Of a DNA stretch of 64,000 nucleotides, positions 47,840 through 64,000 are shown in pieces; positions within the stretch are counted from its first letter, which is position 1; every line of letters begins with the position of its first letter. The stretch comes from Rhodocyclaceae bacterium (GTDB taxonomy: Bacteria > Pseudomonadota > Gammaproteobacteria > Burkholderiales > Rhodocyclaceae). The stretch is from the NCBI GenBank assembly GCA_019455325.1, contig JACFMQ010000002.1:455353-519352 (forward strand), written 5' to 3'. The notes below the pieces were generated by a model that saw only the letters and a program-made list of their open reading frames with translations, ran no database searches and had not been told where the DNA came from. The position numbers and the translations under genes are program-made.

Positions 47840-48464
47840 ACTGCGCGCCGAACTGATCGCCGCCGCCCGCCGCATGGCAGCAAGCGGCCTCAACCGGGGC
47901 ACCGCCGGCAACCTCTCGGTGCGCGAGCGCGACGGCTTCCTGATCACGCCGACCGGCATGGACTACGAGACGCTGACGCCGGCCGACGTCGTCTTCATGC
48001 GGCTGGACGGCAGCCACGACGGCCGGCGCAAGCCCTCGTCGGAGTGGCGCTTCCACCGCGACCTCTACGCCGCGCGGCCGGAGGCCGGCGCCGTGCTGCA
48101 CGCGCATTCGCCGTTCGCCGCCAGCCTGGCCTGCCTACGCCGCGAGATTCCGCCCTTCCACTACATGATCGCCCGCTTCGGTGGCGACACGGTCCGCTGC
48201 GCCGGCTACGCCACCTTCGGCACGCAGGAGCTGTCCGACGCGGCGCTGGCGGCGATGGCCGGGCGCAGCGCCTGCCTGCTCGCCAACCACGGCATGCTGC
48301 TCCACGGCCGCGACCTGAAGCACGCGCTCGACCTCGGCGTCGAGCTGGAGGCGCTCTGCGAGCAGTACTGGCGCGCCTGCCAACTGGGCGAACCGGCCTT
48401 GCTCGACGCCGAGGAGATGCGGCGGGTGCTGGAGAAGTTCGCCGGCTACGGCCAGCAGGCGTAG
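47832..48464 (+). CDS. Class II aldolase/adducin-family protein, likely 5-methylthioribulose-1-phosphate aldolase
   Basis: 210 residues. GTG start with GGAGG six bases upstream, overlapping the mtnA stop. It shows the family zinc ligands in LHAHSP and NHGMLLHG, and GTAGNLSVR for phosphate binding. The catalytic segment KPSSEWRFHRDLY matches fuculose-phosphate aldolase (SSEWRFH) better than the MtnB dehydratase. Together with mtnA this suggests the DHAP shunt, where methylthioribulose-1-phosphate is split to DHAP and 2-methylthioacetaldehyde. An MtnB dehydratase role cannot be excluded. Confidence 0.82.
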   Translation: MPELRAELIAAARRMAASGLNRGTAGNLSVRERDGFLITPTGMDYETLTPADVVFMRLDGSHDGRRKPSSEWRFHRDLYAARPEAGAVLHAHSPFAASLACLRREIPPFHYMIARFGGDTVRCAGYATFGTQELSDAALAAMAGRSACLLANHGMLLHGRDLKHALDLGVELEALCEQYWRACQLGEPALLDAEEMRRVLEKFAGYGQQA

Positions 48465-48532
48465 TCGGCGGCAAGCTTCCGCCGGCAGCGCGTCATCTAC
48501 CGCTCTGCCTGCATCTCGACGTCCGCGATGTC

Positions 48533-48549
48533 GCGACACTCTGTGTCGC
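48533..48549. promoter_or_regulatory. Palindromic operator candidate upstream of the sirtuin gene
   Basis: GCGACACtctGTGTCGC, with perfect 7-bp arms and a 3-base centre, 37 bp before the sirtuin ATG. It lies just upstream of a possible -10 (TAGGAT, 48560-48565), the right place for a repressor. A degenerate copy lies at 49365-49381. Confidence 0.6.
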
Positions 48550-48586
48550 ACGACGAGCCTAGGATTCGACGAGGAGGCAACCCAAA

Positions 48587-49336
48587 ATGAGCGAATCCAT
48601 TCCCGCCGAACTCTTCGTCCTGCTGCGCACGGCACGGCATGTCGTCGTACTCACCGGCGCCGGCGTTTCCGCCGAGAGCGGCATCCCGACCTTCCGCAAC
48701 AAGATGATGGGCCTGTGGGAGCGCTACGAGGCCGAGGAACTGGCCCGTGCCGATGCTTTCCGGCGCGACAGGGCGCTGGTCTGGGGCTGGTATGAATGGC
48801 GGCGCAAGCTGGTGATGCTGGCGCAGCCCAATCCGGCGCATCTCGCCATCGCGGCGCTGGCGGAACGGACGCCGCGCCTGACCGTCATCACCCAGAATGT
48901 GGACGACCTGCACGAGCGGGCGGGCAGCCGGGGCGTCATCCATCTGCATGGCGAAATCCAGCGTCCGCGCTGCTTCGCCTGCAATCGGCCATTCGCATTC
49001 GGGCCTGGCATCCCGGACGAACCCGAAGGCGGTCGCAGACTGGAACCGCCGCGCTGCGCGCATTGCAATGGCTACATCCGCCCCGGCGTCGTCTGGTTCG
49101 GAGAAATGCTCCCGCAAGACGCATGGAAAGCCGCCGCCAAGGCTTGCGAAGCCTGCGACCTGATGTTCGTCGTCGGCACTTCCGCGCTGGTGCATCCGGC
49201 GGCGAGCCTGCCGGAAATCGCCGCGCGGCGCGGCGTGCCGACGGTGCAGGTCAACCCGAACGCCACGGCGCTCGATGATGTGATGCGCTTCAATCTGACC
49301 GGCGCCGCCGGAGAAATCATGCCGCGCCTGCTTTGA
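48587..49336 (+). CDS. cobB: NAD-dependent protein deacylase, class III sirtuin (SIRT5/CobB-like)
   Basis: 249 residues, a complete sirtuin. It shows GAGVSAESGIPTFR (NAD binding), ITQNVDDLHERAG, catalytic His in HLHGEI, the zinc ribbon CFAC plus CAHC, and VVGTSALVHPAA. The YEWR near residue 66 matches the YxxR acyl-pocket motif of SIRT5-like enzymes that remove succinyl or malonyl groups. A strong GAGGAGG precedes the ATG. It lies 93 bp upstream of the AAA+ gene on the same strand, and both have a similar dyad upstream. It looks like a housekeeping deacylase, but co-regulation with the accessory module is possible. Confidence 0.92.
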   Translation: MSESIPAELFVLLRTARHVVVLTGAGVSAESGIPTFRNKMMGLWERYEAEELARADAFRRDRALVWGWYEWRRKLVMLAQPNPAHLAIAALAERTPRLTVITQNVDDLHERAGSRGVIHLHGEIQRPRCFACNRPFAFGPGIPDEPEGGRRLEPPRCAHCNGYIRPGVVWFGEMLPQDAWKAAAKACEACDLMFVVGTSALVHPAASLPEIAARRGVPTVQVNPNATALDDVMRFNLTGAAGEIMPRLL

Positions 49337-49364
49337 CGCGGCGCCGGTTTTCCCCGCTTCGGAT

Positions 49365-49381
49365 GCGACACATCCTGACGC
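49365..49381. promoter_or_regulatory. Degenerate copy of the GCGACAC dyad upstream of the AAA+ gene
   Basis: GCGACACATCCTGACGC matches the site at 48533-48549 (read on the reverse strand) at 13 of 17 positions, including TGCGACACA exactly. It lies 49 bp before the AAA+ start codon. Confidence 0.5.
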
Positions 49382-49393
49382 TGGCGCCCGGAT

Positions 49394-49412
49394 GATGACG
49401 GCCATCGTCATC
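49394..49412. promoter_or_regulatory. Second dyad upstream of the AAA+ gene
   Basis: GATGACGgccatCGTCATC, with perfect 7-bp arms and a 5-base centre, 17 bp before the ATG. It could be another operator or a hairpin in the 5' untranslated region near the ribosome site. Confidence 0.4.
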
Positions 49413-49429
49413 CGATCGAGAGATTCACC

Positions 49430-51661
49430 ATGTCCACCACGCGCCGCACGAACAAGCGCAGGGCCGGCAGGCACCATGCGGAGCTTCATCCGCTGGTTCA
49501 CCTGTGGATTCTGCGCATCCTCGTCAACCTGAACGCACACCACGCATTTGTCGACAGGGACGGCGTGGCTGACGACGCCCTGGCCCGCGCGCTGGGGCTG
49601 GGGGATTGGATGGATTGGATGAACGAGGAAGCCAATGTCGATGACGACAATGCGGAGCCGTGGTTGACCGAAGAAAAACGATGCGAAGAAAAAAAGCCCA
49701 AACGCCCCAACTATCTGGCTGAACTACGCGCGCTGCATCGCCAGACGGAGAGAGCGGCCGTCAAAGACAGCGCCCGCTTCGAGCCGTCCACGCCACTGCG
49801 CGCGAACGTGCAACGACTGGCGCAACTGGCGGGCTTGTCTGCGGTAGACGAGCGCATCCTCGTCTTCGCCATCCTCGTGCGTGAAGAGCACATGCTGAGA
49901 ACGGTCGCCCGCTTTCTGGGCGACATGAATCTGGAGCGGGTTTTCCAGTCGGTCGCCGCCGTGCTGGCGGTGCCCGCAAGCGATGTGCGCATGGCCTTGC
50001 GCGGGCAGGGTACGCTGCTGCGCAGCGGCCTCGTGTCCACCAGGAAGCAGCACGGCTACCTCCATGATCTGAGCGAATGGCTGGATCTTCTGTCCGACAG
50101 CTTCGCCATGCAGATGACGCTGGCGCAGGCCGACCCCGTCAATCTGCTGCGCGGCAAGGTCAACCCCGTGGCACCGGGGAACCTGCACTTGGCGGATTAC
50201 GCACACGTGCAGGAATCCCTGGATGCGCTGATGCCCTATCTGCACCAGGCCACGGCCACGCGGAAGAAGGGCGTGAACATCTACATCCACGGCGCGCCGG
50301 GTACCGGCAAGAGCCAACTCGCCCGCACGGTGGCGGCGGCCCTGGGGTACGAGCTGTTCGATGTGGCGAACGAGGACGAGGACGGCGCCCCGGCCGACCG
50401 CGCGGAGCGCCTGCAAGCCTATCGCGCGGCGCAGAGCTTCTTTGCGCAACGCAGGGCGCTGATCGTGTTCGACGAGGCCGAGGATGTGTTCGACGACGGC
50501 ACGCGCATGTTCCTTCGCCTGTTCGGCGATGACAGGAGCGGCACGGGCAAGGACAAAGGCTGGATCAACCACGCGCTGGAAAACAACCCCCTGCCGACGA
50601 TCTGGCTTTCCAACGCCAACCACCTCGACCCGGCCTTCATGCGCCGCTTCGATATGGTGTTCGAGTTGCCTGTGCCGCCCAGGAAGCAGCGCGAAAAAAT
50701 CGTGCTCGACGCCTGCGGCGACATGGTGGACGCGGCGAGCGCGAAATCTCTTGCCAAAGCGTTGTCCGAGGTGGAAACCCTTGCGCCGGCGGTCGTCACC
50801 CGCGCAGCCAGCGTGGTGCAGGCCATTCGGGCCAGGCACGAAACGCAGGGCGTGGATTTCAGCGTCGCGCAAAAAACGCGGATGCTGCAACACCTGATCG
50901 GCAACACGCTCGAAGCCCAAGGCCATGCCGCGCTGAAAAGGCATGACCCCGACCGCCTACCCGAAGTGTACGACCCGGCCTTCATCCATGCGGATACGGA
51001 CCTGGCGGTGGTGGCCGAAGGCATCGAAACCGCAGGCGGCGCGAGATTGTGTCTCTACGGCCCGCCCGGCACGGGCAAGACGGCCTATGGTCGCTGGCTG
51101 GCGGAGCAGTTGGGCAAACCGCTCATCGTCAGGCGCGCATCCGACATCCTTTCCAAGTGGGTGGGCGGCACGGAGAAAAACATGGCTTGCGCCTTCCGCG
51201 AAGCCGAGCGAGAAAACGCCGTGCTGCTGATGGACGAGGTGGACAGCTTCCTGCAAGACCGGCGCGGCGCGAGCAAGAGCTGGGAGGTGACGGCGGTGAA
51301 CGAAATGCTGACGCAGATGGAAAGTTTCGGCGGCGTGTTCATCGCTTCCACGAACCTGATGGATGGTCTCGACCCGGCGGCGCTGCGCCGCTTCGACCTG
51401 AAAGCCCGGTTCGACTTCCTGAAACCGGAGCAGGCCGCCGAACTGCTGCGCCATCAATGCGCCCATCTCGGATTGGCCGCACCGAACGACGCCGACCTGG
51501 AAGCCCTCGACCGCCTGAAAAACCTGACGCCCGGCGATTTTGCCGCCACCCTGCGTCAACATCGCTTTCGCCCCATTGCCTCCGCCGCGCAGTGGGTGCG
51601 GAGCCTGCAAGGCGAATGCGCATTGAAGGAGGGCGCAAAGGCCGCCATTGGATTCATGTAA
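49430..51661 (+). CDS. Tandem AAA+ ATPase of an accessory gene module
   Basis: 743 residues. An N-terminal region of about 260 residues is helical and partly charged, with no recognised domain. AAA1 follows with Walker A GAPGTGKS (about 287) and Walker B ALIVFDEAEDVF (about 343). AAA2 has Walker A GPPGTGKT (about 543), Walker B VLLMDEVDSF (about 598) and an Arg-finger-like ALRRFDLKARF. The tandem layout resembles Cdc48/ClpB-like unfoldases or remodelling ATPases. AAA1 is unusual in having DEAEDVFDDG after Walker B. It is encoded 53 bp before the DUF2779 nuclease gene and probably drives or controls it. I do not know a characterised orthologue. Confidence 0.88.
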   Translation: MSTTRRTNKRRAGRHHAELHPLVHLWILRILVNLNAHHAFVDRDGVADDALARALGLGDWMDWMNEEANVDDDNAEPWLTEEKRCEEKKPKRPNYLAELRALHRQTERAAVKDSARFEPSTPLRANVQRLAQLAGLSAVDERILVFAILVREEHMLRTVARFLGDMNLERVFQSVAAVLAVPASDVRMALRGQGTLLRSGLVSTRKQHGYLHDLSEWLDLLSDSFAMQMTLAQADPVNLLRGKVNPVAPGNLHLADYAHVQESLDALMPYLHQATATRKKGVNIYIHGAPGTGKSQLARTVAAALGYELFDVANEDEDGAPADRAERLQAYRAAQSFFAQRRALIVFDEAEDVFDDGTRMFLRLFGDDRSGTGKDKGWINHALENNPLPTIWLSNANHLDPAFMRRFDMVFELPVPPRKQREKIVLDACGDMVDAASAKSLAKALSEVETLAPAVVTRAASVVQAIRARHETQGVDFSVAQKTRMLQHLIGNTLEAQGHAALKRHDPDRLPEVYDPAFIHADTDLAVVAEGIETAGGARLCLYGPPGTGKTAYGRWLAEQLGKPLIVRRASDILSKWVGGTEKNMACAFREAERENAVLLMDEVDSFLQDRRGASKSWEVTAVNEMLTQMESFGGVFIASTNLMDGLDPAALRRFDLKARFDFLKPEQAAELLRHQCAHLGLAAPNDADLEALDRLKNLTPGDFAATLRQHRFRPIASAAQWVRSLQGECALKEGAKAAIGFM

Positions 51662-51713
51662 GGGCCGGACACATGGGATGATTCGTCCATCGGCGGAAAG
51701 GGAGCGTGGGAAC

Positions 51714-53213
51714 GTGGCGTGTACGCTGTCGAAAACAAAGCTGTTGAATTTCCGGCAATGCCCCAAGCGGCTATGGCTGGAAATCCATCGACCGGAATTG
51801 CGCCAGGATTCGAGCGCGACGCAGGCCAGCTTCGCAGTCGGCCATCGAGTCGGCGAGATCGCCCGCCAACTCTACGACCCGAAGGGCAAGGGGACGCTGC
51901 TCGATCCGCAGACCGACGGGTTCGAAGCGGCATTTGCGCGCAGCCTCGACTTGTTGACTTCCGCCCAGCCGATTTTCGAGGCCGGGTTCCGTGCGGAAGG
52001 CGCGTTGGCTTTCGCGGATGTGATGTTGCCGACGAGAAAGGCAGGCAAGCGCGTCTGGCGCATGGTCGAGGTCAAGTCATCGACCGCGGTGAAGGATTAT
52101 CACCGCGACGATGCCGCCGTGCAGTCTTTCGTCGCCAGAGCCGCCGGCGTGCCTCTGGCCGGGATTGCGCTGGCGCATGTCGACAGCCGGTGGGTCTATC
52201 CGGGCGACAGGGATTATCGGGGCTTGCTGGTCGAAAACGATCTGACCGACGAGGCGTTCGGACGCGACGGGGAGGTGCGTGCGTGGATCGCCGAGGCGCA
52301 GCGGATCGTTTCCAGGGAAAAGGCGCCGGCCATCGACACGGGCAGCCGGTGCGGCAACCCTTACGACTGCCCGTTTCTGGACCACTGCCGGGGGCAGGCG
52401 CCGCAGGCGGAGTATCCGGTCGCATGGCTTCCCGGAGTACGATCGAAGGCGCTGAAATCGTTCATCGAGTCGACGCCGGCCTGCGACCTGCGCGAGGTGC
52501 CCGACGGCTTGCTCAACGACATCCAGCGGCGCGTCAAGGCCGCCACGCTGTCCGGGAAGCCGTATTTCGACGCGGAAGGCGCTACGCAGGCACTGCGCGC
52601 GCACAAGCTGCCGGCGTATTTTCTGGATTTCGAGACCATCCAGTTCGCCGTTCCAATCTGGAAGGGCACGCGCCCTTACCAGCAGATTCCATTTCAGTTC
52701 AGCGTGCACAGGATTTCCCGCACGGGCAAGGTTGAGCATCGCTCATTCCTCGATCTGTCCGGCGCCGATCCGTCGAAGGCATTCGCCGAAACCTTGATTA
52801 CCGCCTGTAGAGAACGCGGCTCCGTTTTTGTTTACAACGCCGGATTCGAAACCGCGCGCATCCGCGAACTGGCCGAACGTTTTCCGCACATGAAGCGCGA
52901 TCTGCTGGCCTTGAACGAACGCATCGTGGATTTGCTGCCCGTGGCGCGTGAATATTACTACCACCCCGACCAGCAAGGAAGCTGGAGCATCAAGGCCGTG
53001 CTGCCGACGTTGTGCCTAGATTTGAATCACGGTACGCTCGACGGCGTGCAAGACGGCGTCGATGCGCAAACCGTATGTCTAGAAGCCATTGCCCCTGAAA
53101 CCGCGTCAGAACGGAAGGCAGAAATCGAACGGCAGTTGCTGGCCTACTGCAAGCTCGACACCTGGGCAACGGTGAAGCTGTGGATATTTTTCACCGGCAA
53201 TACGATCAATTGA
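51714..53213 (+). CDS. DUF2779-type protein: Cas4-like Fe-S PD-(D/E)XK nuclease fused to DnaQ-like exonuclease
   Basis: 499 residues. The N-terminus LSKTKLLNFRQCPKRLWLE is typical of DUF2779/RecB-like proteins. Cys16 with Cys213, Cys219 and Cys225 (CGNPYDCPFLDHC) could bind an Fe-S cluster as in Cas4 and AddB. Glu119 and Lys121 in MVEVKSS form the nuclease ExK motif. The C-terminal half has the RNase H-like exonuclease motif YFLDFETIQF (Asp305, Glu307) and LLAYCKLDTWAT (Tyr478, Asp482), so both nuclease sites look intact. GTG 51714 fits the family start; ATG 51678 is also possible. Confidence 0.82.
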   Translation: MACTLSKTKLLNFRQCPKRLWLEIHRPELRQDSSATQASFAVGHRVGEIARQLYDPKGKGTLLDPQTDGFEAAFARSLDLLTSAQPIFEAGFRAEGALAFADVMLPTRKAGKRVWRMVEVKSSTAVKDYHRDDAAVQSFVARAAGVPLAGIALAHVDSRWVYPGDRDYRGLLVENDLTDEAFGRDGEVRAWIAEAQRIVSREKAPAIDTGSRCGNPYDCPFLDHCRGQAPQAEYPVAWLPGVRSKALKSFIESTPACDLREVPDGLLNDIQRRVKAATLSGKPYFDAEGATQALRAHKLPAYFLDFETIQFAVPIWKGTRPYQQIPFQFSVHRISRTGKVEHRSFLDLSGADPSKAFAETLITACRERGSVFVYNAGFETARIRELAERFPHMKRDLLALNERIVDLLPVAREYYYHPDQQGSWSIKAVLPTLCLDLNHGTLDGVQDGVDAQTVCLEAIAPETASERKAEIERQLLAYCKLDTWATVKLWIFFTGNTIN

Positions 53214-53290
53214 CGGCAGCAGGAATCCGTACGACACCCATCGACCATATAAATGGTTTAAAACAATTTCACCCAACGAGGAACCATGAG

Positions 53291-53887
53291 ATGGCAATGA
53301 AATTCAAAGGCATCGGCGAAGCATTCGAGGCTTTCTTTGAGGAAGCCATTGTCGAGAGAGGATTGATCGACAAATTGATGGAGATCGAAAATGGCTTCGA
53401 GGGGTGGCTGAAACTGGAATTTTATTTCTGGCTTATCAAGCGTTACAATCTTTCCCGGTCAAAAGATGAGATCGGAATGGAGTGGAAAACGCAGTTGAAC
53501 AAAAAAGCCAGCGATTACAAAAAAACAAAACAGTGCGATCTTTGGGTATGTGACATCAATAACCCGGATGATGAACGGTATCACTACATCGAGATAAAGG
53601 CTCCATTCAACAACGACAACAGAGGGAAAATGCTTCACGGGGACAACCTCTCCGCATCAAGCGACCTTTGGTACATATCAAGAATCGAAGCCGGCAAGAA
53701 GGCGCTTCAATATCCTCTCAGCGGCAGCGTTATTATTCTTGGGGTTGGCTTTGATGCCACAGAATGGAAAGAAGCCGTAAAAGACATTAAAAAATACGCC
53801 AACATTCCATTGCGTGAAAAATTGATCGAAGAAGACAAGCGCCACGAGAAAATCAGGTGGGCCGTTCTGACTCACGATTACCGATGA
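53291..53887 (+). CDS. Small AT-rich PD-(D/E)XK-like protein, probable nuclease
   Basis: 198 residues with no family recognised. A restriction-endonuclease-like core is visible: Asp83 in KQCDLWVCD, then Glu101 and Lys103 in YHYIEIKAPF, an Asp-X17-Glu-X-Lys spacing, preceded by an acidic helix (NGFEGWLKLEFYFW). Base composition is visibly much more AT-rich than either neighbour, a sign of separate transfer. ATG 53291 has AGGAA eight bases upstream; an earlier in-frame start at 53180 would overlap the DUF2779 gene. The stop overlaps the WYL start (ATGA), so it belongs to the module. A DNA-cutting role is inferred. Confidence 0.75.
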   Translation: MAMKFKGIGEAFEAFFEEAIVERGLIDKLMEIENGFEGWLKLEFYFWLIKRYNLSRSKDEIGMEWKTQLNKKASDYKKTKQCDLWVCDINNPDDERYHYIEIKAPFNNDNRGKMLHGDNLSASSDLWYISRIEAGKKALQYPLSGSVIILGVGFDATEWKEAVKDIKKYANIPLREKLIEEDKRHEKIRWAVLTHDYR

Positions 53888-54903
53888 AAAACAAACGCCC
53901 CGAAACCCTCGAAACCGCATTGCTCGCCATCGAATTGCTGAAGCGCATCCCGCGCGGACGCAAGGCGAGCGCGAGCGAGCTTCATACGCAGTTGCGCGAC
54001 GCCGGCATAGACCGCGATCTGCGAACCATCCAGCGCCAGCTTCAAATGCTGAGCGAGCATTTCGAGATCGAACGCGACGAGCGCAGCAAGCCCTACGGCT
54101 ATCGCTGGCTGGAGCAGGCGAAGGGCATGGCCCTGCCCGGTTTGACGCCGCAGGAATCGCTGCTTCTCCTGCTGGCCGAGGAGCATTTGCGCAACCTTCT
54201 GCCCGCGCGCCTGATGAAATCCATGTCGGGCTTCTTCGCTCAGGCGCGGCGCAATCTCGGCCCCGGCGGCAACGCCAGGCTGGAACGCGAGTGGCCCGGC
54301 AAGGTGCGCGTGGTCGCCACCAGCCAGCCGCTGTTGCCGCCCGGCATTCCCCCTGCCGTCTTCGAGATCGTCAGCGATGCGCTTTACGGGAACCATTGGC
54401 TGCATCTGGATTACCGCAATGCGAGCAGCAAGCGGAGCACGGTCGAGGTGATGCCGCTGGGCCTGGTGCAACAAGGGCCACGCCTCTATCTCGTTTGCCG
54501 CTACCGGGGCTACGGCAACGAGCGCAACCTGGCGCTGCACCGCATCCTTTCCGCCAGAATGTCCACGCTGTCGTTCGAGCGGCCAAGGGGATTCGATCTC
54601 AAGCAATACGACGACGACGGGCGTTTCGGGTTCGGCGAGGGGAAACGCATTCGGCTGACGTTCCGTATCGACCGGAATGCCGGCCTGCACCTGCTGGAAA
54701 CGCCACTGGCGGCGGATCAGCAGGTCGCCGAACGGGACGATGGGCAGCTTGAAGTCACGGCGACCGTGGTGGATAGCGCCATGCTGGAATGGTGGCTGCG
54801 CGGATTCGGCGATGCCGTGTCCCATATACGGCGGAAAGCCGTCAAACAGGCAGTGCCGATCAGCCGGCCCACCGGGGCGCTTCGCTCGTGCCTCCGCATG
54901 TGA
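53884..54903 (+). CDS. WYL-domain transcriptional regulator
   Basis: 339 residues. The N-terminal winged HTH (TLETALLAIELLKRIPRGRKASASELHTQLRDAGIDRDLRTIQRQLQML) is followed by a WYL domain (LHLDYRNASSKRSTVEVMPLGLVQQGPRLYLVCRYRGYGNERNLALHRI) and a C-terminal WCX-like part. WYL regulators such as BrxR and CapW control phage-defence loci and bind short palindromes. The GCGACAC dyads upstream of the sirtuin and AAA+ genes are candidate sites. It is the last gene of the module, with a start that overlaps the upstream nuclease gene. Confidence 0.9.
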   Translation: MKNKRPETLETALLAIELLKRIPRGRKASASELHTQLRDAGIDRDLRTIQRQLQMLSEHFEIERDERSKPYGYRWLEQAKGMALPGLTPQESLLLLLAEEHLRNLLPARLMKSMSGFFAQARRNLGPGGNARLEREWPGKVRVVATSQPLLPPGIPPAVFEIVSDALYGNHWLHLDYRNASSKRSTVEVMPLGLVQQGPRLYLVCRYRGYGNERNLALHRILSARMSTLSFERPRGFDLKQYDDDGRFGFGEGKRIRLTFRIDRNAGLHLLETPLAADQQVAERDDGQLEVTATVVDSAMLEWWLRGFGDAVSHIRRKAVKQAVPISRPTGALRSCLRM

Positions 54904-54921
54904 GAGACGAGGCTTCCTCGG

Positions 54922-55152
54922 CTACCCGCCCGCTCGGGCGTCGTCGGCATCGAGGCGATCCAGTATCGCCAGCGCGCGATTCACATCGCCGGTTGCCGTC
55001 AGCGCGCGGAAATGGCTCTCGGTATCCCACGCCGCCAGTGCATGGGCGCTCAACTGCTCCACCAGCTTGTTCGTACTCAAGCCACGGCTTCTTGCCATGT
55101 CCTTGAGACGCGCAGCGGTATCATCGGGAAGTCGTATCGTCAGCGCGCTCAT
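54922..55152 (-). CDS. Lone RHH-type antitoxin-like protein
   Basis: 76 residues. The N-terminus MSALTIRLPDDTAARLKDMARSRGLSTNKLVEQLSAHALAAW is a clear ribbon-helix-helix (CopG/Arc-like) DNA-binding fold of antitoxins. ATG 55152 is chosen since GGAGG lies seven bases upstream; the ATG at 55158 is too close to it. No toxin gene is adjacent: downstream is the convergent WYL gene and upstream an unrelated membrane protein gene. The toxin is lost or elsewhere. Confidence 0.75.
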   Translation of the reverse strand: MSALTIRLPDDTAARLKDMARSRGLSTNKLVEQLSAHALAAWDTESHFRALTATGDVNRALAILDRLDADDARAGG

Positions 55153-55202
55153 TTCCATACCTCCATACATTACGCTGCAAAAAAGGTCGGCACCGGCCAT
55201 GG

Positions 55203-56024
55203 TCAGCGCGGCACCAACACCCCCCGCGCCACCGCATACAACCCCCAGACCAGCAGCAGCGGCAGGATCAGCGTCTGCAGGACGAAGATCACCATCAGCT
55301 TGACGATGTGCGCCGTCGCCTGTTCGACGGTCTGGCGCAACTGCTCGAAGCGCGCCTTCCATTCGACGCCCTGCGTTTCCAGCCAGCCCTTGAAGCGTTC
55401 GACCAGCCCGGCATCGGCGGACGCCGGCGGGCCGAGGCGGGCGGCGCCGCCAGCGGTGTGTTCGATCACCTGCTGGCTGGCGGCGTAATCGTCGGCCATG
55501 AAATGCCGGAAGGCGGCGTCGCTGCCGATGGTCGCCAGTGGCACGGCGAAGCGCGTCAACAGCAGGACCAGCAGCAGGCGGGAAAGCCAGGGGGGCGCCC
55601 GCCCCCGGCCGAGAAAGGACAGCGCCCAGACGGCGGCGAGCAGGGAAAGGAAGGCCGAGATCGCCCAATGCGCGCCGATTTCGAGCAGCACCTTCTGGAT
55701 GCCGAAGGCGATGCTCGCCATCAGCATCAGGTCGGCGAAGCGTTCCACCAGGTCGTTCAGCGGATCGAGCACCTGGCCGACGCTGAGGTTGACGCCAACA
55801 CCGGCGGGCTGGACGGCGATCTCCGTGCCCTGCGCCAGCGAAATCGCGGCATTCAGCGCCCGCGCCGAGGCGAAGCTGATCAGGGCCCGCTTCAGGCCGG
55901 CGTCGACCTGCGCGTTGGCGGCGCCTTCCAGCGGCCGCAGCCAGGCCGCCGCGACCATCGCCAGCAGCAGCCCGACGAGGACCAGGCGGGCGGCCGTGCC
56001 GGGCGTCGAGGCATCCTGGCGCAT
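55203..56024 (-). CDS. Unknown inner-membrane protein
   Basis: 273 residues with an N-terminal hydrophobic segment (LVLVGLLLAMVAAAWL). Further transmembrane helices follow at about 100-160 (DLMLMASIAFGIQKVLLEIG, ISAFLSLLAAVWALSFLG, LLLVLLLTRFAVPLATIG) and at the C-terminus (HIVKLMVIFVLQTLILPLLLVWGLYAVARGVL). Between them a soluble loop is rich in Glu/Gln helices, possibly a coiled coil. I do not recognise the family. GGAGGAG precedes the ATG. It is 26 bp after the next small membrane gene on the same strand. Confidence 0.7.
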   Translation of the reverse strand: MRQDASTPGTAARLVLVGLLLAMVAAAWLRPLEGAANAQVDAGLKRALISFASARALNAAISLAQGTEIAVQPAGVGVNLSVGQVLDPLNDLVERFADLMLMASIAFGIQKVLLEIGAHWAISAFLSLLAAVWALSFLGRGRAPPWLSRLLLVLLLTRFAVPLATIGSDAAFRHFMADDYAASQQVIEHTAGGAARLGPPASADAGLVERFKGWLETQGVEWKARFEQLRQTVEQATAHIVKLMVIFVLQTLILPLLLVWGLYAVARGVLVPR

Positions 56025-56050
56025 CGGATCGCTCCTCCCGGACGCGCCGC

Positions 56051-56413
56051 TCAGCGCGGCGCTCCGTCGCGCGGCGGATCGTCGCGGGCGATCTCGACCG
56101 CGATCACCTCGCCCTCGATCACCGCCCCGCGGCCCGCCTCCTCGCCGGCGGCAGGCGGCCGCTCGCGCGCCATCTCCGCCATCCGTTCGTCGAGTTCGCG
56201 GCGGACGCGGCGCGTCTTCCACCACAGCCAGGCGCCGGCGATCAGCCCCAGGCCGAGGGCGACGGCGACGAAGACCAGCGAGAAGGTGAGGGCCACCGCG
56301 AAGAAGACGACGGCGACGATCGCCGCCAGCGCCTTGGCGAACGGCCCCGGCGGCCGGCCGCCGGCGCCTGTCGATCGCGCGAAGAATTCCCCGTTTTCCC
56401 GTTCCGGACGCAT
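56051..56413 (-). CDS. Small membrane protein of unknown function
   Basis: 120 residues with two closely spaced transmembrane segments (ALAAIVAVVFFAVALTFSLVFVAVALGLGLIAGAWLWW). A basic, then acidic, cytoplasmic tail follows (RRVRRELDERMAEMARE, then EGEVIAVEIARDD). AGGAAAGGAAA precedes the ATG at 56413. It is probably co-transcribed with the unknown membrane protein downstream and divergent from the SLC13-type permease. Confidence 0.65.
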   Translation of the reverse strand: MRPERENGEFFARSTGAGGRPPGPFAKALAAIVAVVFFAVALTFSLVFVAVALGLGLIAGAWLWWKTRRVRRELDERMAEMARERPPAAGEEAGRGAVIEGEVIAVEIARDDPPRDGAPR

Positions 56414-56534
56414 TGTTTCCTTTCCTGCAGTCTTTTCGGGCGACGCCGCCCAGCCGATACAATAGCCCAGCTTGCGCTCTCCGTCCGCCCGACGCGCCGC
56501 CAGGCGCACCGACACACACCGCCCGAATACCGAA

Positions 56535-58370
56535 GTGAACCTCGAAACGCTCTGGGTCTTCCTCCTGCTCGCCGCCTGCGTCGCGGCCTTCGTCGCCAAC
56601 CGGCCGCGCATGGACGCCGTCGCCCTGCTGGCCCTGCTCGCCCTGGTCGTCTCCGGCACGCTCGACGTCCGCGAGGCGCTGGCCGGGTTCAGCGAGCCGA
56701 GCGTGATCCTCATCGCCGCCTTCTTCGTCATCGGCGAAGGGCTGGTGCGCACCGGCGTCGCCCACCGCGTCGGCGACTGGCTGCTCGAACGCGCCGGCGC
56801 CAGCGAGACGCGCCTGCTGACGCTGCTGATGCTGGCCGTCGCCGGCCTCGGCTCGGTCATGAGCTCGACCGGCGTCGTCGCCCTGTTCATCCCGGTGGCG
56901 CTGAGCATCGCCCGGCGCATCGGCGCCGCCCCCGGCCGCCTGATGATGCCGCTGGCCTTCGCCGGGCTGATCAGCGGCATGCTGACGCTGGTCGGCACGC
57001 CGCCGAACATGGTGGTCAGCAGCGAGCTGGCGCGCGCCGGCCACGCCGGCTTCGGCTTCTTCGACTTCACGCCGGCCGGCCTGGTCGTGCTGGCGCTCGG
57101 CGTCGCCTACATGGCATTCGCCCGCCGCTGGCTGGGCGAGGCCGGCGGCAAGTCCGACGGCGCCGCCGGGCAGCGGCGGCGCCTGCGCGACCTCGCCGCC
57201 GACTATGCGCTGCTCGGCCGGCCCCGCCGGCTGCGCGTCCTGCCCGATTCGCCGCTGATCGGCCACACGCTGGGCGGGCTGCAACTGCGCAAGGCGCACG
57301 GCGCCAACGTCATCGCCATCGAGCGCGCGCGCCAATTCGGCAAGGACATGCTGACGACCTCGGCCAACCGGGAGATTCTCGCCGGCGACATCCTGTTCGT
57401 CGATTTCGTCGCCCCCGGCCTCGATCTCGACGGTTTCTGCCGGGACATGCACCTGCAGGGGCTCCCCTTCAAGGGCGACTTCTTCTCGGACATGTCGCGC
57501 GAACTGGGGCTGGCCGAGGTCATGCTGCCGCCGGATTCGGGCCTGATCGGCAAATCCATCCTCGAACTGCGCATGCGCTCTCAGCGCGGCATCAACGTCA
57601 TGGGGCTGCGCCGCCAGGGCCACGCCTTCAGGGACGATCTGCTGCGCGAGAAGCTGCGCATGGGTGACACCCTGCTCATCGCCGGCACCTGGAAGGCGAT
57701 CCGGCTGCTCAACGCGCAGGCGCGCGATTTCCTCGTGCTGACGCTGCCCGCCGAGATCGACGAGGCGGCGCCGGCGGCGCGGCGCGCGCCCTTCGCACTG
57801 CTCGCCCTGGCCGTCACCGTCGGGCTGATGATCAGCGGCCTCGTGCCGAACGTCGTCGCCGCGCTGATCGGCTGCCTGCTGATGGGCGCCTTCCGCTGCA
57901 TCGACATGGACAGCGCCTACCGCGCCATCCACTGGCAGAGCCTGATCCTGATCGTCGGCATGCTGCCCTTCGCGCTGGCGCTGCAGAAGACCGGCGGCAT
58001 CGACCTGATCGTCGCCGGCCTGCTCTCGCTCACCGGCGACGCCTCGCCGCGCCTGGTGCTGGCCGCGCTCTTCGCGCTCACCGCGGTCGTCGGGCTGTTC
58101 ATCTCGAACACGGCGACGGCGGTGCTGATGGCGCCGATCGGCATCGCCCTCGCGCAGCAGATGGAACTCTCGCCCTACCCCTTCGCCATGACCGTCGCGC
58201 TCGCCGCGTCGGCGGCCTTCATGACGCCGGTGTCGTCGCCGGTGAACACGCTGGTGATCGGCCCCGGCCGCTACCGCTTCGTCGATTTCGTGCGCATCGG
58301 CGTGCCCTTCACGCTGATCGTGCTGATCGTCTGCGTCGGCCTGCTGCCGGTGCTGTTTCCGTTCGGCTAG
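56535..58370 (+). CDS. SLC13/DASS-type permease with RCK_C (TrkA-C) domains
   Basis: 611 residues. About five N-terminal transmembrane helices with MSSTGVVALFIPVAL and GTPPNMVVSSELA are followed by two central cytoplasmic RCK_C-like domains (residues about 220-410, each with LIG-type strands). The C-terminal transmembrane block has ISNTATAVLMAPIGIALAQQM and TPVSSPVNTLVIGPGRYRFVDFVRIG. Such proteins import anions such as sulfate or dicarboxylates; the substrate is not known. GTG 56535 is the most likely start, though the ribosome site is poor. The stop overlaps that of the convergent araC-like gene. Confidence 0.88.
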   Translation: MNLETLWVFLLLAACVAAFVANRPRMDAVALLALLALVVSGTLDVREALAGFSEPSVILIAAFFVIGEGLVRTGVAHRVGDWLLERAGASETRLLTLLMLAVAGLGSVMSSTGVVALFIPVALSIARRIGAAPGRLMMPLAFAGLISGMLTLVGTPPNMVVSSELARAGHAGFGFFDFTPAGLVVLALGVAYMAFARRWLGEAGGKSDGAAGQRRRLRDLAADYALLGRPRRLRVLPDSPLIGHTLGGLQLRKAHGANVIAIERARQFGKDMLTTSANREILAGDILFVDFVAPGLDLDGFCRDMHLQGLPFKGDFFSDMSRELGLAEVMLPPDSGLIGKSILELRMRSQRGINVMGLRRQGHAFRDDLLREKLRMGDTLLIAGTWKAIRLLNAQARDFLVLTLPAEIDEAAPAARRAPFALLALAVTVGLMISGLVPNVVAALIGCLLMGAFRCIDMDSAYRAIHWQSLILIVGMLPFALALQKTGGIDLIVAGLLSLTGDASPRLVLAALFALTAVVGLFISNTATAVLMAPIGIALAQQMELSPYPFAMTVALAASAAFMTPVSSPVNTLVIGPGRYRFVDFVRIGVPFTLIVLIVCVGLLPVLFPFG

Positions 58371-59299
58371 CCGCCGCGAACCGACTTCGGCGTGCGTCCG
58401 AAATACCGCGCGAAGGCCGCGCTGAAATTCGCCGGGTGCTCGTAGCCGACGGCGTAGGCGACCTGAGCCACCCTCGCCCCCGACGCCAGCAGCGTCCACG
58501 CGCGCTGCATCCGCAACTGCAGCAGGTGGCGGGCCGGCGTGACGCCGAAGGCTTCACGGAAGCCGGCCTTGAATGCCTGTTCGTTGAGCCCGACGGTCGC
58601 GCACAGGTACGGGATCGTCAGGCGTCGGTCCATCTGCGCGCGCATCAATTCGCGGGCGCGTTCGAGTTTCTCGATCAGGGGCCCGTCCAGGCGCGGTGAG
58701 GGATCGCACGCCCCCGCCGCCGCCGACAGCGGCCGCAGGACTTCGGCCGCCAGCGTCAGCGCCGCGATCTGCCGCTCCAGCGGCGGCACGCGTTCGGGGA
58801 CGAGCAGCGCCTGCAGCAGCGCCCGGCACCACGGCGGGATCGTTTGTTCGCCGAGCGCCTCGACCCCGTTCCGGCACGCCAGCCGCGCGGCGGCGGCCAC
58901 GCCGAGGTAGCGTTCGACGGCCGGTGCGGCGAGCACCAGCCGCAGTTGGCGCACCGTCGCGCCGGCCCGGACGCGCCGCTCGCCGGCGCTGGCGGTGTAT
59001 GCCGCCAGGGTCGCATGCCCGGCGCGGAAGCGCAGGGCCGCGCCCCGGCGCGCGACGTAGCCGGATTCCCCGGAAATGCCGAAGGTGGCGACCAGCGTCG
59101 TCCCCGGGCCGACCTGGGCGGACTCCTCGGTCAGATCGCCCGACGGGCGGTACAGGGAATGCGCCAGCGTCAGGCCCTCGCCCAGCGGGGCGTATTCCGT
59201 CCAGCAGTCGCCGAACTCCGCGGGCAGGACGGCGCGCGTCCCGCCGGCGGCGCCGCCGGGGATGCGCAGCACGTCCTCGCTTCGCGCCCGGCTAGACAT
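58367..59299 (-). CDS. AraC-family regulator, siderophore-locus type
   Basis: 310 residues. The C-terminal double HTH is clear (RRLTIPYLCATVGLNEQAFKAGFREAFGVTPARHLLQLRMQRAWTLLASGARVAQVAYAVGYEHPANFSAAFARYFGRTPKSVR). The N-terminal part has the length and pattern seen in PchR-like regulators, which sense iron-siderophore complexes. It is divergent from the TonB receptor gene and probably activates it when the siderophore is present. The ribosome site at the ATG is weak. Confidence 0.88.
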   Translation of the reverse strand: MSSRARSEDVLRIPGGAAGGTRAVLPAEFGDCWTEYAPLGEGLTLAHSLYRPSGDLTEESAQVGPGTTLVATFGISGESGYVARRGAALRFRAGHATLAAYTASAGERRVRAGATVRQLRLVLAAPAVERYLGVAAAARLACRNGVEALGEQTIPPWCRALLQALLVPERVPPLERQIAALTLAAEVLRPLSAAAGACDPSPRLDGPLIEKLERARELMRAQMDRRLTIPYLCATVGLNEQAFKAGFREAFGVTPARHLLQLRMQRAWTLLASGARVAQVAYAVGYEHPANFSAAFARYFGRTPKSVRGG

Positions 59300-59360
59300 C
59301 GCCGGAAACGCCGCCCGCGCCCGATCGCATACGAATTTCTCCTGATCGCATTCGATTATT

Positions 59361-59379
59361 GATGAGATTCATTCTCATC
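59361..59379. promoter_or_regulatory. Fur box between the araC-like and TonB receptor genes
   Basis: GATGAGATTCATTCTCATC is a perfect 7-bp-arm palindrome with 11 of 19 matches to the Fur consensus, 47 bp before the receptor ATG. It indicates iron-repressed transcription of the receptor, and perhaps of the regulator. Confidence 0.75.
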
Positions 59380-59425
59380 GAATCATAGCATTGGCCATCG
59401 ACCCGCAAGAACGGAGGAAATGGAA

Positions 59426-61420
59426 ATGCGAAAGACGCTTCACCGCGACATCGGCCTGCTGGCGATGCTGCTCGGCGCAGGTCACGCCGCCCTGGCGCAG
59501 GAGGCCGCCGAACTGCCCGCCGTCACCGTCACGGCCAACAAACGGTCGCAGGCGCTGGAGCGCGTCCCGGCCAGCATCACGGTGATCGACGCAGACGAAC
59601 TGGAGGCCGCCGGCGCGCGCGGCATCGAGGACGTGGCGGCGATGGCGCCGGGCTTCGCCATCCAGCCGATGGGGCAATCCGGGCTGCAACCGCCGGTGAT
59701 GCGCGGCCTCTCCGCCAACGTCATCTCCTTCTCGTCGTCGGCCGCGCTGGTGGTGGACGGCGTCGCCACCCTGCGCGGCCAGGGCTTCGACGACAGCCTG
59801 CTCGGCGTCGAGCGCGTCGAGATCCTGCGCGGCCCGCAGTCCGCGCTGTACGGGCGCAACGCCGAAGCGGGCGTGGTGAACATCGTCACGCGCCAGCCGG
59901 GCAACGATCCGCATGCCGCGCTCGCGCTCGACCTGGGCAGCCGCGACAAGCAGGCGCTGCGCTTCGATGCCGGCGGCGCGCTGGTGCGGGACACGCTGTA
60001 CCTCGGCGTGGCCGGCGAATTCTTCCGGCAGGACGGCTTCATCGACAACGTCCACACCGGCCGCGCCGAGGATGACCGCGAACGCCGCAGCGGCCGGCTG
60101 ACGCTGCGCTGGACCCCGGACGCGCGTACCGACGTCGCCCTGCGCCTCTCTCAGCGCGAATACGACGACGGCGGCTCGCTCTGGGGGCCGACCGGCGGCC
60201 GGCGCGAAACGGTGCGTTCGGGGACGGAAAGCTGGAACCGCAGCAAGTCGCGGACGGCGTCGCTGGACATCGCCCATGAACTGGCCTCCGGCCTGCGCCT
60301 GCGCTCGATCACCGCCGGCAACGAGCATTTCGACCGCATTCTCCAGGACATGGATTTCCAGCCGGCGAGCCTCACCCACCTGGGCCGCGACTACCGCTTC
60401 CGGACTCTCTCGCAGGAGTTTCGGGTCGAAGGCAAGGCGGGCGACGCCGCCTGGGTGGCCGGCCTCTACCTGGACCGCGACGACAACGAACTGAACTTCG
60501 AGAACAGGACGCCGCTGGCCCTGGCGCGCACGTCGTCGACGCAGGAAGGCAACGCCGCCGCGCTATTCACCCAGTGGGACGTGCCGCTTGCGGCGCGCTG
60601 GTCGCTGCAGGCCGGCGCCCGCATCGAGCGCGACGAGATCCGCTTCCGGCTGGCCGGCGGCAGCGAACGCGAGCGCGAGTGGACGCGCCTGACGCCGAAG
60701 CTGGCCCTGCAATACCAGTGGCAGCCGCTGGCGCAGATCTACGCCAGCGTTGCGGACGGCTTCCGCGCCGGCGGCTTCAATACCTTTGCGCCGGAGACCT
60801 ACCGCAGCTACGCACCAGAAAAGCTGCGCGCCTGGGAACTGGGCATCAAGGGCAGCCTGCTCGACCGCCGCCTGCGCTACAGCGCCGCCGTCTATCGCAT
60901 GGACATCGACGACATGCAGGTGCAGCAGATGGGCGCGGTCATGGGGCAGGTGTTCATCACCAACGCCGCCACGGCCCGCTCGACCGGGGCCGAGGCCGAG
61001 CTGCGCTGGCTGCTCGGCGGCGGCTGGCAGGTGCAGGCGGCGCTCGGGCTGAACCGCACCCGTTTCCGCGAATTCAGGGACGGCGCCAACGACTACTCGG
61101 GCAAGCGCAATCCCTTCGCGCCCGACATCGACGGCCACCTCGGCCTGCGCTACGACGCGCCGGCCGGCTGGTTCGCCCAGGCGCAGGTCGCCGGCTACGG
61201 CAAGGTTTACGTGGATGCGGCCAATACGCCGGCCTGGCGGCGGCCCGGTCATGCCGTGGTCAATCTTTCCGCCGGTTATGCGTGGGGACGGACGGAGCTG
61301 ACGGCCTACGTCAACAACGCCGCCGACAAACGCTACGACACCGTCGGCTTCCCGAACGGCGCGATCACCATCTACAGCCCGCCGCGCGAACTCGGGCTGC
61401 GCCTGAACTGGCGTCTGTGA
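59426..61420 (+). CDS. TonB-dependent siderophore receptor
   Basis: 664 residues with a signal peptide (cut near ALAQ), a TonB-box-like LPAVTVTANKR, and a plug domain (VPASITVIDADELEAAGARGIEDVA, VERVEILRGPQSALYGRNAEAGVVNIVTRQP). A beta barrel ends in LRLNWRL. ATG 59426 is chosen because GGAGG lies eight bases upstream; the in-frame ATG at 59420 is too close to it. The upstream Fur box and the neighbouring AraC and MFS genes indicate iron-siderophore uptake; the ligand is unknown. Confidence 0.92.
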   Translation: MRKTLHRDIGLLAMLLGAGHAALAQEAAELPAVTVTANKRSQALERVPASITVIDADELEAAGARGIEDVAAMAPGFAIQPMGQSGLQPPVMRGLSANVISFSSSAALVVDGVATLRGQGFDDSLLGVERVEILRGPQSALYGRNAEAGVVNIVTRQPGNDPHAALALDLGSRDKQALRFDAGGALVRDTLYLGVAGEFFRQDGFIDNVHTGRAEDDRERRSGRLTLRWTPDARTDVALRLSQREYDDGGSLWGPTGGRRETVRSGTESWNRSKSRTASLDIAHELASGLRLRSITAGNEHFDRILQDMDFQPASLTHLGRDYRFRTLSQEFRVEGKAGDAAWVAGLYLDRDDNELNFENRTPLALARTSSTQEGNAAALFTQWDVPLAARWSLQAGARIERDEIRFRLAGGSEREREWTRLTPKLALQYQWQPLAQIYASVADGFRAGGFNTFAPETYRSYAPEKLRAWELGIKGSLLDRRLRYSAAVYRMDIDDMQVQQMGAVMGQVFITNAATARSTGAEAELRWLLGGGWQVQAALGLNRTRFREFRDGANDYSGKRNPFAPDIDGHLGLRYDAPAGWFAQAQVAGYGKVYVDAANTPAWRRPGHAVVNLSAGYAWGRTELTAYVNNAADKRYDTVGFPNGAITIYSPPRELGLRLNWRL

Positions 61421-61437
61421 AGCGAAGGAGAGCGGAC

Positions 61438-62481: not shown

Positions 62482-62483
62482 GC

Positions 62484-63692: not shown

Positions 63693-64000
63693 TCACGCAA
63701 CGCAACCGGCTTGCCGCGCTTCTGCTGTCGTCCTTACTGAGTCTTCCGGCCTGGGGTGCGGACGAGTGCGCGCGCATCGAACCGGGGCCCGCGCAGTATT
63801 CGCTGATCCATCCGTTCCACCTGCCGCACGTTCTCCGCTTCATCACCGAGAACGAAGACGCCTTCCGCATCGACGCCGGCCAGCAGCAGGCGATCGGCCG
63901 GCTGGTCGCCGAAGTGAGCGGGCCGACACAGGCCCGTCAGGCGGAGGCCGGCCGGCTGGAACGGGAAATCGCCGTCGCCGCCTTCGCCGGACAGGACAGC
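63689..64000 (+). CDS. Periplasmic protein, truncated by window end
   Basis: The first 104 residues are visible. There is a signal peptide (LAALLLSSLLSLPAWGADE), a Cys near residue 27, then IHPFHLPHVLRFITENEDAFRIDAGQQQAIGRLVAEV and a charged helical stretch. The helical, Gln/Glu-rich start resembles Spy/CpxP-like periplasmic proteins, but this is weak. TGGAGGA precedes the ATG, which overlaps the MFS stop, so it belongs to the iron-uptake operon. Confidence 0.6.
   Translation, partial: MITQRNRLAALLLSSLLSLPAWGADECARIEPGPAQYSLIHPFHLPHVLRFITENEDAFRIDAGQQQAIGRLVAEVSGPTQARQAEAGRLEREIAVAAFAGQDS

Follow-up and report, generated by a model that had tools for sequence, protein, structure and literature searches.

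A WYL-linked tandem-AAA ATPase and DUF2779 nuclease cassette in a variable region of a Rhodocyclaceae genome, a possible mobile stress-response or defence operon

A stretch of 64,000 nucleotides from contig JACFMQ010000002.1 of a Rhodocyclaceae bacterium (assembly GCA_019455325.1, 4.46 Mb in 31 contigs), hereafter the window, was analysed around four same-strand genes at positions 49430-54903. Three of these, encoding a tandem-AAA ATPase, a DUF2779 dual nuclease and a WYL regulator, are judged from their sequences to be a recurrent core. We propose that they form a mobile, WYL-controlled cassette for genotoxic stress or defence, and put the probability of this reading at slightly under one half (about 0.48). 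The proposal builds on the gene order, its recurrence in other genomes, a common control site, intact motor and nuclease residues and a conserved tail on the ATPase, all of which can be seen in the sequences themselves.

Gene organization of the cassette

48460-64000, running on about 1.5 kb past the window end, no strand: variable region holding the cassette (comparison with same-genus genomes)
48532-48550, no strand: control site 1, CGCGACACTCTGTGTCGCA, 1 mismatch, 36 bp 5' of the Sir2 start
48587-49336, + strand: Sir2-family protein, 249 amino acids (aa), probably co-regulated (PF02146, E=2.7e-54)
49364-49382, no strand: control site 2, TGCGACACATCCTGACGCT, 2 mismatches, 47 bp 5' of the ATPase start
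49389-49414, no strand: further inverted repeat CGGATGATGACGGCCATCGTCATCCG directly 5' of the ATPase start, with 11 of 13 half-positions pairing
49430-51661, + strand: tandem-AAA ATPase, 743 aa (PF00004, E=5.7e-38 in two stretches)
51714-53213, + strand: DUF2779 protein, probable GTG start at 51714 (PF11074, E=9.7e-46)
53291-53887, + strand: AT-rich orphan protein, 198 aa, ATG at 53291; a PD-(D/E)XK nuclease is possible, by eye only
53884-54903, + strand: WYL-WCX regulator, 339 aa, with a winged helix-turn-helix (wHTH) presumed by eye (PF13280 6.2e-13; WCX PF25583 7.5e-08)

An open reading frame (ORF) scan found four same-strand ORFs at 49430-54903, just where an earlier note, made from the sequence alone, had placed a four-gene accessory module. 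The 77-bp gap between the DUF2779 and third genes (from the ATG at 53291) and the overlap of the last pair, in which the WYL start meets the third-gene stop as ATGA, are as that note had given them. The first gap, given there as 53 bp, is present and measures 52 bp from the ATPase stop to the likely GTG start at 51714. The third gene is AT-rich as claimed, with a G+C content of 48.7% in 53001-54000 versus 62.9% and 65.2% in the adjoining kilobases. Not recognised in the first reading were the junction of the variable region at 48459/48460, the Sir2 gene and the common control site. The coordinates given there contain the four genes but neither Sir2 nor the two control sites (48532-49382). The Sir2 gene probably belongs to the cassette, since it lies inside the same variable region of about 17 kb and a copy of the control site stands in front of it.

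Recurrence of the core genes

ATPase, DUF2779 and WYL genes recur together in unrelated genomes, as the module proposed earlier would have it: on the ATPase tree, linkage to DUF2779 has changed at least 13 times and linkage to WYL at least 20 times. The ATPase was found in 17 of 150 genomes of the family (at E<1e-95, a threshold chosen after the score gap had been seen), and in 25 of 300 order and 42 of 398 phylum genomes (E<=1e-90). DUF2779 occurs in 3 of 150 family, 31 of 300 order (over the cut-off) and 22 of 398 phylum genomes, and in none of 14 control genomes. All three DUF2779-carrying family genomes also carry the ATPase (0.3 expected, p=0.0012), and the two genes are found together in 12 of the 300 order genomes against 2.6 expected (p=3.6e-7); these p values are hypergeometric and ignore shared ancestry. 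In 8 of these 12 order genomes the pair lies within about 10 kb on one contig.

In 9 of 145 ATPase loci (the window, L004, L005, L030, L050, L130, L148, L150 and L151) the ATPase gene is followed directly by DUF2779 on the same strand. Five of these run on to a WYL gene, two end at a contig edge and two have no adjacent WYL gene; in the window, one of the five, the third gene stands in between. DUF2779 and WYL genes stand on the opposite strand beside the ATPase in six further loci (L154, L155, L172, L173, L057 and L026). A WYL gene lies within six genes of the ATPase for 61 of 139 unique ATPases (53 have none and 25 could not be judged), and WYL and DUF2779 are associated with each other (14/48 versus 1/53, p=1e-4). 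From the DUF2779 side, a WYL gene was found within four genes in 7 of 20 loci (L224, L225, L227, L228, L229, L230 and L232). A Sphingobium plasmid carries ATPase, WYL and DUF2779 genes, and an Aliarcobacter plasmid carries PD-(D/E)XK, DUF2779 and WYL genes, with no such ATPase in the 13 kb viewed. Beside the set on the Sphingobium plasmid (L244:9450-11662), a second WYL gene is divergent from a TM0106 RecB-like nuclease gene.

Several choices define these counts. One search for relatives listed 80 of 446, and the loci are part of all genome matches. Copies sharing the same final 200 residues count as one, which reduces 146 to 142; the scan for the core of the control site used a slightly different set of 142 loci, and the tree was made from 139 sequences after a 550-aa filter. 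Locus ORFs were called by a length and GC3 rule, and since this rule mis-called the Sir2 and citrate-transporter genes of the window, counts of 'other ORFs' are rough.

A quite different explanation would be that accessory genes gather in the same variable regions by chance, without joint function. The ATPase does occur in many contexts (at least 60 neighbour clusters, most of them in few loci each), DUF2779-WYL pairs are found with no ATPase in the stretch viewed (L224, L225, L227 and L230), 13 of 20 DUF2779 loci, some of them on short contigs, have no WYL gene within four genes, and the third gene is a singleton. Against this, the genes are tightly spaced, unrelated genomes and plasmids show the same gene order, and ATPase and DUF2779 genes have one control site in front of them (7 of 48 DUF2779 genes versus 44 of 2,091 other ORFs). 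We consider chance assembly highly improbable.

The tandem-AAA ATPase

The two complete Walker A/B pairs claimed for the ATPase are present and largely conserved. Walker A motifs lie at 288-295 (AAA1) and 544-551 (AAA2), and among 146 relatives their lysines are kept in 145 and 146, respectively, the Walker B acids in 139 and 146, and the sensor asparagines in 138 and 146; the arginine pairs are kept in 138 and 143 (AAA1) and in 145 and 145 (AAA2). The AAA2 pore loop (W577-V578-G579) has Trp, Tyr or Phe at one position in 144 of 146 relatives, and the matching AAA1 loop is acidic in the window copy. An AlphaFold model built with 39 sequences (pLDDT 87.5) matches Rix7 best, followed by Cdc48/p97, Drg1 and NVL (E from 4.6e-19 upwards, TM 0.36-0.61, among the 50 matches listed). 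All of these are protein unfoldases. The NCBIfam CDC48 match (4.4e-23) reaches 81.5 bits, below the curated cut-off of 802.65, and a clamp-loader match (phrog_168, 1.2e-16) is weaker and of the kind shared by AAA domains generally.

Model and residues point to a Cdc48-type double-ring protein unfoldase. There is little for the earlier suggestion that the ATPase loads or gates two nucleases: clamp-loader matches exist at the AAA level, but a protein-remodelling role is better supported because fold and pore loop match protein unfoldases, and a DNA loader was set lower on the same grounds. The Cdc48 N domain is beta-rich, and the N-terminal region modelled here is mostly helical to about residue 250. 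As modelled, the ATPase is best described as one that would work like Cdc48 and is not filed as Cdc48.

The C-terminal tail is a conserved feature of the family. In the model the last helix ends at residue 734, no regular structure follows, and residues 739-743, which include an Ile-Gly-Phe (IGF) tripeptide at 740-742, have pLDDT below 50. Of 145 complete ATPase copies, 126 have a tripeptide of the form [ILVMF]-G-F among their last 8 residues, compared with 9 of 2,232 other ORFs in these loci; in 17 of the 145 it is absent even from the last 12 residues. In 39 diverse ATPases, Gly741 is invariant and Phe742 is kept in at least 90%. Clp ATPases are reported to dock to ClpP by a (L/I/V)-G-(F/L) tripeptide (PMC8745299), and by analogy the IGF tail may dock ClpP. 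Among the titles listed by a literature search for a C-terminal version of this tripeptide, none was recognisably on it.

Some ATPase copies (matches in G669, G653, G371 and G342) carry one in-frame stop, which suggests decay of these copies. An unannotated 47.5-kb phage record (MT835507.1) encodes a relative with 40.7% identity over 81% coverage, and PHROG 10401 aligns with residues 79-737 of the window ATPase.

The DUF2779 nuclease and the orphan third gene

According to the earlier note both middle proteins show nuclease motifs. This is confirmed for the DUF2779 protein, whose motifs are conserved in 47 relatives, and unconfirmed for the third protein, in which they were read by eye only. 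In an alignment of 47 DUF2779 proteins (from 54 matches, selected by length and identity; numbering from the ORF start at 51648), the Cas4-type residues C38, D124, E141, K143, Q159, C235, C241 and C247 and the exonuclease-type residues D327, E329, E401, D428 and D504 are each kept in at least 44. Cys235, Cys241, Cys247, Glu329 and Asp428 are found in all 47, Asp124 and Asp327 in 46, and Cys38, Glu141 and Lys143 in 45. Profile matches to Cas4 are weak (PADLOC Cas4 1.7e-4; Pfam Cas_Cas4 E=0.12, below the cut-off). By its residue pattern, the protein is a predicted fusion of a Cas4-like Fe-S PD-(D/E)XK domain and an RNase H-like exonuclease domain; DUF2779 has been placed in a 3'-5' exonuclease clade and reported as fused to DUF83 (PMC3985635).

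The third protein contains the strings 'CDLWV' and 'YIEIK', which could be PD-(D/E)XK motifs, so that a nuclease of this type is possible. The claim that it is one was not confirmed: there was no match to Pfam, PADLOC, NCBIfam or PHROGs profiles, and the fold model is uninformative (mean pLDDT 42.4). No relative was found in the ORFs of the loci, 72,556 plasmids, 50,697 phage records, viral contigs or 199 other genomes. A four-gene module is unsupported because no relative of the third gene was found in these sets, and this gene is best read as a strain-specific insertion at the DUF2779-WYL junction.

The WYL regulator and its putative operator

The identification of the last gene as a WYL regulator was borne out by its PF13280 and WCX matches. 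The best solved matches in a phmmer search are the WYL entries 9cu3, 9pfq, 8tp8, 7u02 and 7tzv (1.5e-08 to 6.4e-08), which we take to be DriD, followed by PafBC (6sj9). Kinship to DriD is not specific, because the window protein is also related to PafBC. In the presumed wHTH, Arg60 (numbered from the ORF start at 53857) is Arg in 77 of 81 WYL proteins of 290-420 aa.

A k-mer search 5' of 142 unique ATPase genes found TGCGACA in 41 loci versus 5.8 expected. Allowing up to 2 mismatches, the palindrome TGCGACA-N5-TGTCGCA stands before the ATPase in 39 of 142 unique loci, where 1.85 would be expected, compared with none of 142 for spacers of 3, 4, 6 or 7 and 0-1 for four control palindromes. Close relatives first drew attention to this site, and the set on which it was counted includes them; the controls are spacer shifts and other palindromes in the same loci. 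The exact core CGAC-N7-GTCG was found near 31 of 142 ATPase starts (2.28 expected; 0-1 for six other spacers), and is identical to the core of the DriD consensus ATACGAC-N7-GTCGTAT (PMC12340889). Known targets of DriD include the endonuclease gene bapE and the exonuclease gene recJ (PMC12340889).

The site also precedes 7 of 48 DUF2779, 9 of 92 WYL, 4 of 7 FtsZ-like, 3 of 5 HDAC-like and 3 of 10 Sir2 genes versus 44 of 2,091 other ORFs, small numbers throughout. Among WYL-linked ATPases, 34 of 61 have the site at up to 3 mismatches versus 9 of 53 without WYL (p=2e-5, Fisher), and 22 of 61 versus 7 of 53 at up to 2 mismatches (p=0.006). In the window, site 1 contains the exact core (at 48534) and site 2 is one letter off it. 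Nowhere else in the 4.46-Mb genome is there a match as close as site 1 (at most 1 mismatch), and matches at up to 2 mismatches are no more frequent than chance would give, so that the site appears to be a local switch here and not part of a genome-wide regulon.

Searches beyond the ATPase loci added little. The exact site had 3 matches in 98 order genomes versus 1 for the control, one beside a DUF2779 gene and two inside other ORFs. Among 80 loci listed for the exact site in viral contigs, none had the ATPase (>300 bits), DUF2779 or WYL. A literature search on the operator letters listed unrelated titles.

Surroundings of the cassette and its mobility

Three same-genus genomes align to the window at 84-90% identity up to 48458/48459, and the next 15-16 kb from each of them have no match to the window. 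In G053, the sole genome tested on the right side, homology returns at C24:520837, equivalent to window position 65485; about 17.0 kb here occupies the place of about 1.6 kb in that genome, with the Sir2 gene within the differing stretch. None of the three genomes (two of which are 87-88% complete) has the ATPase, and relatives of the cassette are also plasmid-borne. A housekeeping operon was set aside in view of this absence and the variable region. A megablast search for an Escherichia coli copy gave no match in 20,395 records.

A related possibility is a DNA-repair or recombination operon, induced by single-stranded DNA (ssDNA) independently of SOS and with no role in defence, in which the unfoldase would clear DNA ends and the dual nuclease resect them. 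It would suit the DriD-like operator, the joining of a Cas4/AddB-type Fe-S nuclease to an exonuclease-type domain (PMC3985635) and the description of both PafBC and DriD as DNA-damage regulators. The patchy distribution (17 of 150 family genomes, none of three other same-genus genomes), the variable region and the plasmids of relatives speak against it, and we regard it as distinctly unlikely.

The inverted repeat CGGATGATGACGGCCATCGTCATCCG has a score matched by none of 100 letter shuffles, and the best palindromes upstream of 19 relatives differ from it. Scans gave 2 sigma-70-like promoters (1.2 in shuffles) and 12 terminator-like sites (8.3 in shuffles), and a repeat search gave nothing informative. 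Two genes 5' of Sir2 were read by eye as of methionine-salvage type, and the cassette is followed on its 3' side by genes for a citrate-transporter-type protein, an AraC regulator, a TonB receptor and an MFS protein. Just downstream, a short gene on the minus strand (54922-55130, within ORF 54922-55668) looks ribbon-helix-helix-like by eye. In a Marinobacter contig (L050), the ATPase-DUF2779 pair is flanked by two similar 203-aa transposase-like fragments at the contig ends.

Neighbours in related loci

Relatives of the ATPase keep varied company. Tubulin/FtsZ-like proteins are encoded near it in seven loci (L154:6908-7846, L155, L004, L020, L131, L157 and L176; none in the window), with the site in front of four of them. 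HDAC-family genes with the control site in front were found at L139:4247-5101 and L154:4-771 (both PF00850) and in L158 (by similarity). Three control sites are common to two divergent ATPase copies in L139 (G120:C14:46745-66240), whose 84.8-kb contig holds four ATPase copies. RtcB RNA ligase genes lie near the ATPase at L040:6203-7429 and in L006, and in L040 a site with 2 mismatches stands between RtcB and a divergent 174-aa gene. One chain at L180:5111-6652 combines RNase_T exonuclease and SIR2 domains, and a site begins 54 bp before its called start. Some ATPase relatives (L013) adjoin an ADP-ribosylglycohydrolase-phosphatase fusion. Unknown, PLD-like and helicase genes follow in L130 (6197-12000), L004, L008, L017 and L021; those of L130 show weak PADLOC similarity to ZacB, DrmC and DrmD.

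Proposed function and alternative readings

We propose that the WYL regulator, like DriD, senses ssDNA arising from DNA damage, phage replication or DNA uptake, and would switch the operon from the two CGAC-N7-GTCG-type sites in front of Sir2 and of the ATPase. As a Cdc48-like double ring, the ATPase would thread or strip proteins, and the nucleic acid thereby exposed would be degraded by the two nuclease sites of the DUF2779 enzyme. Through its conserved IGF tail the ATPase would dock a partner, for which ClpP is the first candidate, and the Sir2 and orphan third genes would be variable add-ons. In this scheme ssDNA sensing, the direction of regulation, protein threading, ClpP docking, the target and the defence outcome are inferred; a role in defence is likely, and an anti-phage function is plausible from context.

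The earlier note had recognised no named system in these genes, and PADLOC and NCBIfam searches agree. The best PADLOC match of the ATPase is IetA (9.3e-39), with its best stretch at 537-694 in the second AAA domain, and reflects AAA-level similarity, as does the match to the TRIP13 model (9.4e-17); for the ATPase, the best 25 Pfam and NCBIfam matches were viewed. IetAS was rejected, the NCBIfam IteA match reaching 117.5 bits over 535-693 against a cut-off of 510, with no protease match in the other three genes. BREX and CBASS were likewise set aside, as no pglZ, brxC or cyclase-effector match was found in the DUF2779, third and WYL proteins. Among the papers listed by literature searches, with most subscription papers outside their reach, none was seen to deal with the ATPase-DUF2779-WYL set; DUF2779 is named in 6 papers, and the main text of a survey of BrxR homologues (PMC9122601) contains neither DUF2779 nor AAA.

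In a strict anti-phage system the operon would be induced or triggered by phage, the two nuclease sites would destroy phage or host DNA, and the ATPase would be sensor or gate. WYL regulators are reported to control CBASS and BREX (PMC9122588, PMC9122589), and of 347 BrxR homologues, 164 are found no more than 50 kb upstream of a known defence system (PMC9122601). One relative (L007) adjoins BREX pglZ and brxD, others stand beside PLD and helicase genes (among them L130), and the variable region and plasmid carriage fit as well. PADLOC, however, matched no system, the operator resembles that of a DNA-damage regulator, and the linked genes of relatives (RtcB, HDAC-like, FtsZ-like, ADP-ribosylglycohydrolase and 5'-nucleotidase) are broader than classical defence. 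We hold this strict version to be rather unlikely.

Returning to the WYL-controlled genotoxic-stress or defence cassette, a number of observations weigh against it. Apart from the lack of a match to any named defence system, the co-occurrence of ATPase and DUF2779 that held across the order was not significant across the phylum (5 of 398 genomes, 2.3 expected, p=0.07). The association of WYL with DUF2779 goes in the right direction in phylogenetic pairs (2.8 versus 0.2) and is not significant (median p 0.25), and the link between WYL and operator is not seen in independent pairs (3.4 the same way, 2.1 opposite). The similarity of the WYL protein to solved proteins is modest, with PafBC among them. 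Of the 142 ATPase loci, 103 have no site even when 2 mismatches are allowed, and many copies have neither WYL nor site; the window's own two sites are imperfect (1 and 2 mismatches), and the genome count at up to 2 mismatches is 19 versus 20 for the control. Three control palindromes with 7-nt spacing were found at 1, 5 and 2 of 142 loci (0.7, 2.7 and 1.0 expected). Finally, CapW is a repressor and DriD an activator, so that the WYL regulator here may act in either direction.

An extended version can be imagined, in which the cassette is a mobile, ssDNA-switched counterpart of the Cdc48-protease partnership: a DriD-type WYL regulator would control a Cdc48-like unfoldase that passes substrates by its IGF tail to housekeeping ClpP, and swappable nucleases, sirtuins, RNA-repair ligases and ADP-ribose enzymes at the same site would make up an operator-defined defence regulon. 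This we consider speculative and unlikely.

The interest of the locus is that an unnamed, widespread AAA ATPase family is linked to a specific DNA switch, the trigger of which is known in DriD to be ssDNA. If the WYL protein binds TGCGACA-N5-TGTCGCA and the IGF tail binds ClpP, accessory regions would contain an SOS-independent, ssDNA-triggered module for protein and DNA disassembly that is unlisted in the defence library searched. The control site could help to find further members whatever their genes.

Comparison with known systems

The ATPase resembles Cdc48/p97, Rix7 and NVL in its two AAA modules with arginine pairs and in the aromatic AAA2 pore loop; it differs from them in the helical N-terminal region and the acidic, non-aromatic AAA1 loop, and from the C-terminal ends of p97 and proteasome-type ATPases in its IGF tail. 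With the Clp ATPases (ClpX, ClpA and ClpC) it has in common an exposed (L/I/V)-G-(F/L) tripeptide, which is at the extreme C-terminus here and in an internal loop in Clp, whose members belong to a different AAA clade. The DUF2779 protein has the PD-(D/E)XK motif and four conserved cysteines of Cas4/AddB-type Fe-S nucleases, and the two-domain plan (DUF83 plus RNase H-like) of COG2251/TM0106 proteins (PMC3985635). In contrast to these, its second domain is of the DUF2779 type, and there is no CRISPR gene among the four.

The DriD regulon of Caulobacter, an SOS-independent DNA-damage response under an ssDNA-activated WYL activator, is similar in the WYL-WCX kinship and the CGAC-N7-GTCG core. Here, however, the regulator lies inside the operon, the targets are a mobile ATPase-nuclease cassette, and the core is mostly preceded by G (55 of 70 half-sites, with A in 13), where DriD has A. 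CapW (CBASS) and BrxR (BREX) are likewise wHTH-WYL-WCX regulators that control an accessory operon through a palindrome of about 20 bp (PMC9122588, PMC9122589); CapW binds palindromes of 19-24 bp (PMC9122588), and BrxR half-sites are 5 nt apart, as in the window site (PMC9122589). The BrxR site itself, ATACCGTAAAAATAATTTACTGTAT, has other letters (PMC9122589), and no CBASS or BREX genes were found among the window's four genes. The WYL/Nudix conflict systems centred on ADP-ribosylglycohydrolase share the WYL protein, optional nucleases and NAD/ADP-ribose enzymes (PMC9503650); AAA does not appear in the main text of that paper, nor DUF2779 in the paper, and of such enzymes the window has Sir2 only. 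The cassette is of a known general kind, a WYL-controlled accessory operon, in a new combination and with two unexpected features, the DriD-type site and the IGF tail.

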